A stretch of DNA of 25,170 bases from a virus: positions 1 to 25,170 of the IMG/VR virus record IMGVR_UViG_3300009079_000119. One strand, 5' to 3'. Position numbers and translations under genes: made by a program. Shown piece by piece: positions 2,617 to 19,659 of this stretch. The notes beneath the pieces were generated by a model that did no database searches, was not told the DNA's origin, and saw nothing but the letters and a program-made list of their open reading frames with translations. Every line of letters begins with the position of its first letter. Position 1 is the first letter of the stretch.

Positions 2617-3135
2617 CTAAGTATTTAGAAACTTACCATAAGAAATTTCTCTCAAGTCAGAGATTTCTCCTGCATACACCTCATATATTTGACCTACTGT
2701 TCTATCTAAACGATATTTTCTATAATCTCCCCAATGATAATTAAGTCCTATAAAATATATATTTTCTTTTTCTTTAAAAATATTTGTGCAGGCAATTAAT
2801 GGATGTTGATCATATCTTATGTTTGGAGTTTTAGCAATGTAAATATAAGTATAAAATTTTCCAGGAATTGGAACAGGAGTTGCAGAACCTTTAACTGCTT
2901 CTAATATTTCTAGCATTTTATCATCTGATGTTTTCCCTTTTAAATTATTAACAATATTTCTTACTCGATTATTATCATCATCTGTTGGTCTATTTGGATT
3001 TTTTAAAACTCCATCATCATAAACATTAGAACCTACTTTTATATTTGGATCACTACTGTAAGTTACTTCACCAGTCTGAGAAACATAATAATATGATCTT
3101 CCCGTTCTTCCACCTCTTTTGATCGTTCTTGCCAT
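2617..3135 (-). CDS. conserved T4-like phage protein of unknown function
   Basis: I do not recognise the function of this 172-residue protein. The N-terminal 30 residues are very basic (repeated Arg, Lys and Gly). Residues about 35-80 are polar and probably flexible. Residues 90-172 form the best-ordered part, with a GKFYTYIYIAKTP strand, a YDQHPLIACT motif and a GLNYHWGDYRKYRLD motif. The last two are the kind of fixed aromatic/His/Asp clusters that mark a conserved fold. It sits between gp4 and gp48 in a leftward structural operon, with a good ribosome site (GAAGGT) before its ATG. This suggests a virion or assembly role, but nothing in the sequence proves it. Confidence 0.75.
   Translation of the reverse strand: MARTIKRGGRTGRSYYYVSQTGEVTYSSDPNIKVGSNVYDDGVLKNPNRPTDDDNNRVRNIVNNLKGKTSDDKMLEILEAVKGSATPVPIPGKFYTYIYIAKTPNIRYDQHPLIACTNIFKEKENIYFIGLNYHWGDYRKYRLDRTVGQIYEVYAGEISDLREISYGKFLNT
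2622..2628 (-). promoter_or_regulatory. late-promoter motif CTAAATA upstream of gp48
   Basis: The minus strand carries CTAAATA about 16 bases upstream of the gp48 start, inside the last codons of the preceding gene. The same motif precedes several structural genes in this window, and it resembles the T4 late -10 element TATAAATA. It is a motif match only. Confidence 0.4.
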
Positions 3136-3165: not shown

Positions 3166-3609
3166 TTAAAATAATTCATTCTCAGTTAGTACCTGAAACT
3201 CATAACCATGATCTAAACACCATTCTTTGGCGGCATCCCACTTTGCCTGATTTTTAGCATACTCAACGACTTCATAGATATAACCTTTTGTCTTTCTTTT
3301 TTTGACTTTAGGTTCTTTTGTTTGTCTGAATGGTTTTATTTCGATAAGTGCTTTTTTTATTTTTCCGTTATTATCTTTATATTTGATGTAGAAATCAACA
3401 AAGTATCTGTGGTATCTGTTATCTACTGGTGATCTGTAGGGAATAACAACCTCCTCACTAGAATATTCTATAATATTTTTATTCATATCACAATAGTAGA
3501 GAAATTTTCTTTCCCAACTACTTCTATAAATGATATTGCAAACATCTCCTTTATACTTCTCTGGATTTGATGGTTTATATTTACCTTGTAGATATTCTTT
3601 TTTAGGCAT
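3166..3609 (-). CDS. gp4: head completion protein (T4 gp4)
   Basis: The 147-residue product matches T4 gp4 (also called gp50, 150 residues), needed to finish DNA-filled heads before tails join. It aligns through NPEKYKGD, YRSSWERKF, YFVDFYIKY and IEIKP. Residues E33, D72 and the E90-x-K92 pair form a PD-(D/E)XK nuclease-like pattern. The start at 3609 was chosen because it matches the length of T4 gp4 and has a good AAGGGA ribosome site 7 bases upstream. An in-frame ATG at 3666 would add 19 residues, but those bases are the coding end of the upstream endonuclease in another frame. The ATG overlaps the endonuclease stop codon. Confidence 0.88.
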   Translation of the reverse strand: MPKKEYLQGKYKPSNPEKYKGDVCNIIYRSSWERKFLYYCDMNKNIIEYSSEEVVIPYRSPVDNRYHRYFVDFYIKYKDNNGKIKKALIEIKPFRQTKEPKVKKRKTKGYIYEVVEYAKNQAKWDAAKEWCLDHGYEFQVLTENELF

Positions 3610-4153
3610 TTTTCCATCCCTTATGCGTCTTATTTCTTCCAGCAACGAGTTGTTGTAAGCACCCAATACTCAAATTATTATCTCTGGCAAATTTGGTAAG
3701 ATTTTTTATTTTTACTATTTCACCATTAGAATTTATTAATGTGTATTCTTTACTGTTTCTTTCCGATATTTTCTCTTTTTGTTTTTTGGAAAGTTTTTTT
3801 CCTTTCATAGGATTTTCATTATTTTTAAACCATTCTTTTCTTTTGTTGCTTTGTTTTAATTTTGTTTCTTCTGAATGTTTTTTCTTCCACATAGGATTTA
3901 ATTCACCAAATCGGGTACTTTGATACATTCCATTTTTTTCTCCAAAATTTGCCCTTGTCATTTTGAATTTTTCATCCTTACATAGTTCTAATGTTTTTTC
4001 TCTTAATATTTTTTTAGTTTCTTCTGTGTGCTTTTTTCCATAAAAACCATTATTTGCTCCATCACAACCACTATTAGATTCAATTTCATATGATTCTGAA
4101 ATTATCTCAATATTAGAATCTATTCCAAGTATCGTATTAAGATTTTTTGTATT
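3602..4153 (-). pseudogene. truncated homing endonuclease remnant (NUMOD3/NUMOD1)
   Basis: The open frame runs for 183 residues from an in-frame TAG (4154-4156); the first ATG inside it is at 3961. It carries several NUMOD3-like DNA-binding repeats (NNGFYGKKHTEETKK, LNPMWKKKHSEETK, NPMKGKKLSKKQKEKI). A C-terminal NUMOD1-like helix-turn-helix follows (LTKFARDNNLS ... LVAGRNKTHKGWKN). These are the specificity modules of GIY-YIG and HNH homing endonucleases. No nuclease domain is visible in the frame or in the short stretch above it, where an ATG at 4174 gives only MKKEYT before the TAG. It therefore looks like a decayed or beheaded endonuclease, though a short DNA-binding protein from 3961 could still be made. 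Its last codons supply the ribosome site of gp4. Confidence 0.75.
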
Positions 4154-4198
4154 CTAAGTATATTCTTTTTTCATACTGAAGAACTTGCTATTCTATAT

Positions 4199-4206
4199 TA
4201 TTTATA
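4199..4206 (-). promoter_or_regulatory. late promoter TATAAATA for the leftward operon
   Basis: The minus strand reads TATAAATA, the exact T4 late -10 consensus, about 25 bases upstream of the first ATG of the endonuclease remnant. It is well placed to drive the remnant, gp4, the unknown gene, gp48 and gp53. Confidence 0.6.
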
Positions 4207-4224
4207 ATATCCCTTATATGACAT

Positions 4225-4231: not shown

Positions 4232-4264
4232 ACTAATAATAAAGTAGTCGTATAGGTATTTAGA

Positions 4265-5125
4265 GTGGCTCGTCCTTATGTAAAAAGTATAAAAACACAG
4301 GAAGCAAAAGATATATTTGGGAGACTTTCACAATCTAATCAATATCAAGTAACTTTCAGTGGTCTTCCGGGAAAAGTTGTTACAAATATAGAGAGTAAAA
4401 CTGGAATAAAGGATATAGTCAATTATATGGGACGTAAAGGAAGTCTTCTTTGTTTCGAAGCTTCACTTCCATCCAGTTCTCTTGCAACTACTGAAATAAA
4501 AAATGACTTTATTGGAATTCCTCAAGAATTTGCACATACTAGATTATACACTGATATTGATTTTAGTTTTTATATTGATTATGATTATAAAAATTTAAGA
4601 ATATTTGAGGGTTGGATTGATTATATTGCAGGAGGAAGTGAATCTATGGATAATATGAAAGAAGAAAATGGAAATTATTATCGTAGGATGAGATATCCTG
4701 ATGATTATAAGACACAGACAATGTTTATTTCAAAATTTGAGAGAGATAATGGTCCCCAATTAGATTATCAGTTTTTTAATGCATTTCCAAAATTAATAAC
4801 TTCTATTCCACTTAGTTATGGTGGATCTAGTATATTAAAAGTTAATGTTTCTTTTAATTATGATCGATATATTATAAATCCAAAAACTACTAATAATGGA
4901 AATAAAGAAACTTCATCATTGACATTTGATAGGGTAGATCCAGAAGCAAAATCAAAGGTTCCTGGAACAAAAGTAGAAACACCAAAGGCTCCAACACCAC
5001 AAAAAGAACCGAAAGGGGCAGCACAACGAGCAGCAACACCAACAGAACAATTAAGAAATACTGGAAATGGTCGTGATGGAACATTTGGGGATGGAACATT
5101 TGGAGCAGGTAGACCTTCAGGTTGA
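4265..5125 (+). CDS. gp54: baseplate tail tube initiator (T4 gp54-like)
   Basis: This 286-residue protein resembles T4 gp54 (320 residues), which with gp48 forms the platform on which the gp19 tail tube polymerises. Visible matches are the QYQVTFSGLPG strand near residue 27 and a FEASLPSSSL strand. An FSFYIDYDYKNLRIFEGWIDYI segment (about residues 99-122) corresponds to the gp54 strand-then-helix element, and FPKLITSIPLSYGGSS and KVNVSFNYDRYI are the closing strands. Residues from about 220 to the end form a Pro/Ala/Gly-rich tail with a repeated DGTFG unit, probably disordered. The start is GTG, with a weak AGG ribosome site. It heads the rightward operon behind a late-promoter motif. Confidence 0.72.
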   Translation: MARPYVKSIKTQEAKDIFGRLSQSNQYQVTFSGLPGKVVTNIESKTGIKDIVNYMGRKGSLLCFEASLPSSSLATTEIKNDFIGIPQEFAHTRLYTDIDFSFYIDYDYKNLRIFEGWIDYIAGGSESMDNMKEENGNYYRRMRYPDDYKTQTMFISKFERDNGPQLDYQFFNAFPKLITSIPLSYGGSSILKVNVSFNYDRYIINPKTTNNGNKETSSLTFDRVDPEAKSKVPGTKVETPKAPTPQKEPKGAAQRAATPTEQLRNTGNGRDGTFGDGTFGAGRPSG

Positions 5126-18909: not shown

Positions 18910-19341
18910 ATGTTTACTACAATTACCAAATGCAAAGGTTGTGGATGCGACATTCTAAATGAAAGAGTGACGAAAGGACGACTAAAAAAATGGTGTAGTC
19001 AACCTTGTAGAGCAAAATGGAGGTATAAAAACGATTCTGTAATTAAGGACAGGAACACTTATACTGAACAAAAAGCAAGAGCATATTCTAATAAATGGAA
19101 AGCACTTCAATACAAAGGTGGTAAGTGTCAAACTTGTGGTGAAGATAGACCCGCAACTCTATGCTTTCATCACAGAGATCCATCAGAAAAATCATTTGCT
19201 CTTGATGGGAGAACCTTTGCAAATAGGAAGTGGGAATTTGTTAAGGAGGAAGTTGATAAATGCGACCTTCTTTGCCATAACTGCCATAATGTGCTACACT
19301 ATGGAGACAGTTGGGGAGAATTCCTAAACGAGCTGGTTTAG
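18910..19341 (+). CDS. HNH endonuclease
   Basis: The 143-residue protein has an N-terminal zinc ribbon-like part (CKGCGCDI ... KKWCSQPCRAKWRYKN, residues about 8-42) and a C-terminal HNH nuclease domain. The latter shows CQTCG near residue 72, FHHRDP with the paired catalytic histidines, and CDLLCHNCHNVLHYG closing the beta-beta-alpha-metal fold. All expected residues are present. Free-standing enzymes of this type cut DNA at specific sites and spread within phage populations as homing genes. It follows an exact late promoter. Its final codons (CTG GTT TAG) lie within the 5' acceptor strand of the tRNA-Met gene, an unusual 10-base overlap. Confidence 0.88.
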   Translation: MFTTITKCKGCGCDILNERVTKGRLKKWCSQPCRAKWRYKNDSVIKDRNTYTEQKARAYSNKWKALQYKGGKCQTCGEDRPATLCFHHRDPSEKSFALDGRTFANRKWEFVKEEVDKCDLLCHNCHNVLHYGDSWGEFLNELV

Positions 19342-19405
19342 CAATCTGGTAGAATGCTCGGAACTCATAATTCCGCGAAGGTGGGTTCAATTCCCTCAAC
19401 CAGCA
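19332..19405 (+). tRNA. tRNA-Met (CAU anticodon)
   Basis: A 74-base cloverleaf has a perfect 7-bp acceptor (GCTGGTT with AACCAGC) and discriminator A. The D arm contains GGTAGAA, the anticodon stem is CGGAA/TTCCG, and the loop CTCATAA puts CAT at 19366-19368. The T loop is TTCAATT with one T-T mismatch in its stem. The G1-C72 pair argues against an initiator tRNA. A lysidine-modified Ile tRNA reading AUA also carries CAU and cannot be excluded. No CCA is encoded. Confidence 0.85.
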
Positions 19406-19410
19406 TTAGA

Positions 19411-19542
19411 CGGGGAATGAGTTCGCCCGCGACGGTGCTAACCACACTGTGATCTAGAGAGTTGGTTACTTTCTTTTTGCTCCATTACAAACTGTCAGTA
19501 TGTTGGGTGTAGCGCCCACATAGCATACGGATAAGTGTAATG
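19411..19542 (+). ncRNA. structured noncoding stretch between the two tRNAs
   Basis: There are three visible structures. CGGGGAA (19411-19417) pairs with TTC-G-CCCG (19422-19429) over a UGAG tetraloop. TAACCA pairs with TGGTTA near 19438-19468. CATTACA (19483-19489) closes with TGTAATG (19536-19542) around a hairpin TATGT-T-GGG/CCC-ACATA with a 7-base loop (19499-19522). No open reading frame fits. It could be part of a tRNA precursor, a relic of further tRNAs, or a separate RNA. Confidence 0.4.
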
Positions 19543-19546
19543 TCTT

Positions 19547-19620
19547 GTGGGCGTAGTCCAATTGGAAGAGACATGGAGTTTAAGCCTCCATCAGTGCTGG
19601 TTCGAGTCCAGTCGCCCATA
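19547..19620 (+). tRNA. tRNA with UAA anticodon (Leu by decoding)
   Basis: A 74-base cloverleaf has acceptor GTGGGCG with CGCCCAT (one G-U pair), D arm containing ATTGGAAGA, anticodon stem TGGAG/CTCCA, loop TTTAAGC with TAA at 19581-19583, T arm GCTGG-TTCGAGT-CCAGT and discriminator A. UAA reads the UUA leucine codon. However, the variable loop is only five bases, whereas leucine tRNAs normally have a long arm. No CCA is encoded. Confidence 0.85.
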
Positions 19621-19659
19621 TTAACATTTACAACAAAGAAATAAATAGTCAAAAAGACT

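Follow-up and report, generated by a model that had tools for sequence, protein, structure and literature searches.

A homing-type NUMOD element without a nuclease domain probably holds the translation start of cyanophage gp4 hostage

Results

An element ORF overlaps the start of gp4

In the T4-like cyanophage DNA studied here, a homing-type element with NUMOD sequences and no nuclease domain is inserted in the head gene gp4, and it is probable that this element holds the translation start of the gene hostage. The window, that is, the whole 25,170-nt stretch that was analysed (IMG/VR record IMGVR_UViG_3300009079_000119, positions 1 to 25,170), has Synechococcus phage S-SKS1 as its closest named relative at the DNA level. 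On the minus strand, the element ORF (4174–3602) is followed by gp4 (3609–3166), and the pair lies between a divergent tail-tube-like gene on the plus strand (4265–5125, left flank) and a gp2-like gene, coding for a DNA end protector, on the minus strand (2617–3135, right flank). The element ORF comprises 190 codons and would encode a NUMOD-only DNA-binding protein; it opens with an ATG at 4174–4172, has an in-frame TAG at codon 7 (4156–4154) and is then open to a TAA at 3604–3602. The gp4 ATG (3609–3607) lies in its last codons, 8 nt (ATGCCTAA) being common to both genes, and the sequence AAGGGA is found at 3622–3617, seven nt 5' of this ATG. This is the arrangement that the original prediction had described.

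The same prediction held that the element retains NUMOD3 repeats, carries an early TAG and lacks a GIY-YIG or HNH domain, and here too it was borne out: Pfam returned NUMOD3 (PF07460) with an E-value of 5e-12 in three stretches, all past the stop and the best-scoring at 4010–4060 (minus strand), and gave no GIY-YIG or HNH model for the window ORF at E≤1. A C-terminal NUMOD/IENR1-like module with the KGW motif at its end occupies positions 3608–3787 of the same strand. The last 60 residues of the element match phrog_2081 (E 3e-9) and a longer stretch matches phrog_314 (E 6e-8), both of them homing-endonuclease PHROGs. NUMOD1, which had also been proposed, gave no Pfam match under that name in the window element; the module was recovered only as sub-threshold matches to the I-HmuI_NUMOD-like family PF22083 in some relatives. 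An AlphaFold2 model of the window-type (type A) protein was of moderate quality (pLDDT 71, pTM 0.33), with the C-terminal module modelled best. Its top Foldseek match was I-HmuI (E 0.0066), at TM-scores of only ~0.3, and a profile match of the element to the I-TevI DNA-binding domain was weak (E 0.018).

The TAG at codon 7 recurs in four more IMG/VR contigs (L003, L083, L005 and L084), which may represent one population; with this reservation, their agreement led us to reject a sequencing error as its source. Stop-codon recoding was rejected as well, since codon 7 encodes an amino acid in 23 relatives; for this check ARAGORN was run on the window and found tRNA-Met and tRNA-Leu only. A nuclease encoded 5' of the ORF was rejected, since the ORF's ATG (4174) lies only 90 nt from the divergent gene, which begins at 4265, and Pfam detected none within the ORF. 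As read from the sequence, the window allele would yield either a protein truncated at codon 7 or one that restarts at the ATG at 3961 and is without the first 71 residues; the gp4 start is, to judge by the same reading, intact despite the stop. Elsewhere in the window, positions 19015–19621 adjoin the tRNA-Met and tRNA-Leu genes and match S-SRM01 DNA that is annotated as an HNH endonuclease in RefSeq; the window ORF at 18910–19341 had no Pfam domain.

Empty and occupied alleles of the gp4 locus

Eighty gp4 loci, retained from at least 597, were compared. A native-type gp4 start is present in 60 (57 parsed as MSYKG or MAYKG, L069 and L071 assigned by eye, and L068 cut at the contig end), and 13 are occupied (eight by the window type, four by a 140-aa type and one by the S-SKS1 type). 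The rest consists of four relics, two element-free loci with an element-associated gp4 N-terminus (L007 and L008) and one locus, L062, with another insert. The latter (L062, 1980–2060) is a distinct short sequence at the gp4 start that encodes a CxxC zinc-finger-like peptide and has its own SD-like site, and is perhaps the relic of another endonuclease.

The closest empty allele, L067, is 100% identical to the window in gp2, and its left gene is 96% identical in the half adjoining the site and 81% in the far half; its alignment to the window breaks at 4203 and restarts at 3587. In the window, the native gp4 start persists as an 8-codon mini-ORF (MSYKGYYK and a stop) at 4198–4224 on the minus strand, which aligns with the gp4 starts of the empty loci L014 and L067. 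The sequence CTAAATA lies 5' of this native start, at 4257–4263 (minus strand), and is also present in element-free loci. A further sequence, TATAAATA, lies 5' of the element ORF at 4199–4206 (minus strand) and was found at most 60 nt upstream of that ORF in 11 of the 14 type-A loci checked. Both are called late-promoter-like, CTAAATA by comparison with the T4/cyanophage consensus.

A second comparison is provided by phages of the ACG-2014f group, in which the occupied isolate Syn7803C8 and the empty isolate Syn7803US7 are identical throughout the left flank (1784/1784 bases). The element ORF of these phages is annotated as 'group I intron endonuclease' and ends 13 nt into gp4, in another frame at that point. 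Three of 41 distinct isolates (45 matching records minus four RefSeq copies) are occupied, one of the three, KJ019096, having been called from span and annotation only. Presence or absence at one site between otherwise similar flanks, as observed for L067 and the window and within ACG-2014f, is a trait of homing endonucleases. Comparison of the allele sequences shows the element inserted in the first codons of gp4, with the native start stranded upstream.

The element carries a ribosome site for gp4

SD scores were calculated as the duplex energy between the 20 nt 5' of the gp4 start and an anti-SD sequence. Among 57 native cyanophage gp4 starts the values ranged from −3.2 to +1.7, and a strong SD was found in none of them (0/57). 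Occupied and relic loci gave −5.5 to −11.2 in 49 of 50 rows (the window, at −7.6 kcal/mol, is counted and a few contigs appear twice); the exception, L088 (−3.3), has an altered glycine in its KGW motif. L062, with its other insert, scored −7.7, and L007 and L008 scored +0.1 and +1.7. The calculation left out L001, L140, L145, L068, L069 and L071, as well as L201–L203, for which an inner ATG had been taken.

The SD-like site coincides with the codons of KGW, a conserved C-terminal motif (AARGGNTGG or AGRGGNTGG). The KGW residues and the SD are inseparable by codon choice, and a weak site is tolerated in L088. The element-free gp4 of T4 has its own AAGGAG, so it is these cyanophages that lack a strong SD, and not gp4 generally. 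Within the window the gp4 SD ranks among the stronger ones, so translational coupling may be unnecessary; SD use across the window is patchy and no strong SD precedes gp4 in native cyanophage loci, so that the SD need not be essential. Masking of the gp4 SD by RNA structure was considered and rejected, as the start region was predicted to be more accessible in type-A loci (0.54, 23 loci) than in native ones (0.27, 22 loci). These data support the interpretation, made from sequence comparison, that the element supplies both the SD-like site and the start codon of gp4. The original prediction had attributed the gp4 ribosome site to the element; element-free cyanophage relatives indeed start differently and without a strong SD, and the same gp4 ribosome site was not found among them.

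The survival of the element's 3' end had been explained in the same way, and relic loci agree with this, as they retain just the element tail with the gp4 start. By eye, what is left in L076, L077 and L080 is an S-SKS1-type tail of approximately 16 codons, with AAAGGGG and a gp4 GTG, and in L009 a window-type tail of approximately five codons. In L007 and L008 the element is lost and the gp4 start is again SD-less, indicating that the dependence of gp4 on the element is not absolute. In S-SKS1 itself (L001, 3733–4170), gp4 is seemingly split over frames and is annotated only as a 63-aa protein; intact copies are found among its relatives.

The element protein is constrained on the whole

Forty relatives of the element were obtained from viral contigs, 28 of them of the window type (57–100% identity). 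The ORF is uninterrupted in 23 of these 28, with an ATG at or a few codons from the equivalent of window position 4174; the four contigs named above have the codon-7 stop, and the frame is broken in L107. Further window-type contigs came from the gp4 locus set (L013 and L015) and from another search (L125, L126, L129–L132, L135 and L138, the element of L138 being cut off by the contig end). In L013 (3419–4444), element and gp4 form one 341-aa frame, possibly through an indel or assembly error in this single contig. Such a fusion was rejected as a general feature, a one-pattern scan of viral contigs having returned the same contig alone.

All 17 pairs with dS > 0.05 had a dN/dS (Nei–Gojobori) of 0.08–0.35, and third positions hold 54 of the 76 differences between L092 and L093. 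The other reading frames gave 0.69–7.1, with one value of 0.36. Very close pairs were higher (L003/L085, 0.46 with three changes; L003/L089, 0.62; L085/L088, 1.15 with six changes), and over the first 40 codons dN/dS exceeded 1 in three of ten pairs (L085/L091, L013/L015 and L003/L091), with few changes. Because dN/dS is low and the other frames are high, the nuclease-less protein of the contigs compared appears to have been under purifying selection on the whole.

These values bear on whether the element is an inert relic, i.e. a homing endonuclease, once complete, whose nuclease is gone and which persists only because the gp4 start lies in its 3' end. The original prediction had called it a beheaded remnant, and of this the nuclease-less state and the stop, present in the window plus four more contigs, stand, whereas the idea of a remnant sits poorly with the 23 intact ORFs and the low dN/dS. 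The early stop, the broken frame of L107, the loci reduced to a tail, the Ackermannviridae relative that occupies this site and has a nuclease, and the lack of clear constraint on the first 40 codons in the window's clade would all suit a relic. However, the ORF is mostly open, the protein as a whole is constrained, and an N-terminal motif, seen by eye in a MAFFT alignment, is shared by element types A–D in the place where a nuclease would be expected. We consider an inert relic unlikely.

Element types and the nuclease

At least five nuclease-less types were distinguished at gp4 in cyanophage-like contigs: type A (the window, ~190 aa), type B (L006, 140 aa), type C (S-SKS1, 112 aa, and longer in L040), type D (ACG-2014f, 110 and 145 aa) and type E (L140 and L145, 192–194 aa). 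When the 145-aa ACG-2014f element was used as a query, one weak relative was found in viral contigs. A nuclease domain was detected by Pfam (E≤0.05) in none of 16 scanned gp4-adjacent cyanophage elements, whereas 20 of the 27 relatives scanned from loci elsewhere had one, and five of the remaining seven appeared GIY-YIG-like by eye; the 27 represent 34 loci minus seven near-copies, are not independent and leave out ~30 further weak matches. A 360-aa ORF in L153 (2875–3957) combines NUMOD3 repeats with a match to a DUF559/MTES_1575-type nuclease.

A nuclease acting in trans was also sought. Five fragmentary contigs had no GIY-YIG match, and four complete genomes had sub-threshold GIY-YIG matches only, with no standout candidate. 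One HNH_3 match was obtained in S-SKS1, and NUMOD3 matches lie at other places in the S-SKS1 and Syn7803C8 genomes; within this set of four, the matches show no relation to the presence of the element.

The gp4 protein itself has nuclease features. It is a head completion/closure protein of phrog_218 (E 1e-57), matches a TnsA-like endonuclease family in Pfam (E 4e-23), is predicted to be a PD-(D/E)XK nuclease in PMC1189080, and retains the residues E, D and ExK in 18 of 18 aligned proteins, including those of element-free phages such as T4; searching PDB sequences with gp4 yielded no useful match. A split homing endonuclease could be imagined, in which the NUMOD protein provides the address and gp4 the cut. 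The contrast in nuclease domains between gp4-adjacent elements and their relatives elsewhere, the conserved gp4 residues, the overlap of the two genes and their in-frame fusion in L013 would fit such a division of labour, but the gp4 active site is conserved without the element too, the Ackermannviridae element at gp4 has a nuclease domain of its own, the fusion is known from one contig, and the nuclease activity of gp4 is itself a prediction. We regard this arrangement as quite improbable, and assign the same slight chance to its corollary, that a radiating nuclease-less family sits at the gp4 start because gp4 is the catalytic half, with capture of the ribosome site leading to joint synthesis. 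If true, an essential head protein would have been turned into the subunit that cuts within a split homing endonuclease.

A tract shared between divergent phages

The window element is 98–100% identical to those of L085, L011, L087 and L089, in which the first 200 nt of gp4 are 96–100% identical to the window, the remainder of gp4 79–80% and gp2, in a gapped alignment, 58–59%; those contigs that include the left gene are 58–66% identical to the window in it. No nuclease domain is seen in these elements. For L085 alone, the values are 99–100% for the element and for the first 200 nt of gp4, 80% for the rest of gp4, 58% for gp2 and 61–66% for the left gene. An anchor-based count gave 92–96% for the 5' part of gp4 vs 80% for the 3' part. 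As a control, 1028 of 1596 element-free pairs had a 3' part of 74–86%; their 5' part averaged 78% and reached 88% at most. The 5' part of the window gp4 is also 98% identical to that of L006, which hosts a different element type. This sequence pattern is the one expected from homing with co-conversion on the gp4 side, and could also arise by ordinary recombination.

The same data weigh against a resident, non-mobile regulatory gene of gp4 that is kin to homing endonucleases and was lost from many phages. Such a gene would account for the constraint on the protein and for its position between late-promoter-like sites and gp4. It is difficult to reconcile with near-identical copies in backgrounds only ~60% alike that share a gp4-side tract, with various element types at one site, and with empty and occupied isolates within one species; we hold it to be very improbable.

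Discussion

The reading that we favour is a nuclease-less homing-type element that has inserted in gp4 and retains its place through the gene's translation start. The KGW codons would double as the SD-like site, gp4 would start in the element's last codons, and the unit would move between phages along with ~200 nt of gp4, by recombination or by a nuclease in trans. An element lost imprecisely would be harmful to the phage, gp4 being an essential gene, and we infer that the translation start is in this sense held hostage. The intact protein would most likely bind the gp4 5' region and repress the adjoining late promoter, as the DNA-binding part of I-TevI does; a DNA-binding role near this promoter is suggested by analogy, only position and weak fold and sequence similarity pointing to an I-TevI-like autorepressor.

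In PMC3296691, F-LimII and its relatives are described as GIY-YIG homing endonucleases encoded 5' of gp4 in Ackermannviridae. In three Ackermannviridae records we find that this place is taken by a homing endonuclease gene with a stop that overlaps the gp4 ATG by one base; two were scanned and contain a GIY-YIG-type domain. Their C-termini read HKGWRKA (two records) or HKLWRKA (phiDP23.1), and in Salmonella phage barely these codons are AAAGGTTGGAGGAAAGCATAATG. F-LimII and the cyanophage element are thus alike in site, in a related C-terminal module and in a stop over the gp4 ATG; they differ in that the scanned cyanophage elements are without the GIY-YIG domain and have a short N-terminal motif instead.

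According to a review of T4 elements (PMC2988022), T4 endonuclease genes, among them segG 5' of gene 32, hold promoters of downstream genes, which favours their retention. Like segG as described there, the cyanophage element carries a signal needed by the downstream gene; it differs from segG in the kind of signal, a ribosome site with a start codon in place of a promoter, and in having no nuclease. The same review reports that I-TevI represses its own transcription through its DNA-binding domain, and the cyanophage element resembles it in having a NUMOD-type DNA-binding part next to a late-promoter-like site. In contrast, I-TevI has a nuclease, and repression by the cyanophage element is only putative. 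In phage Aeh1, the endonuclease gene mobE splits nrdA and function is kept. Here, too, a phage gene is split and still functional, but at gp4 the split affects no more than the first codons, and the gene receives a new start. Among the literature matches listed, no title or abstract opening mentions capture of the gp4 start or nuclease-less NUMOD elements at gp4, an observation that extends to those titles and openings and is no claim of absence from print.

Elements of this kind have apparently spread, and been maintained by selection, while encoding no nuclease themselves. How cutting is done for them is open to direct testing, since the sequenced ACG-2014f isolates include phages that have such an element and phages that lack it. 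The embedded ribosome site would be the translational counterpart of embedded promoters, and suggests that, beside promoters, there is a second way in which a homing-type element may resist loss, namely by carrying the site at which translation of an essential gene begins.
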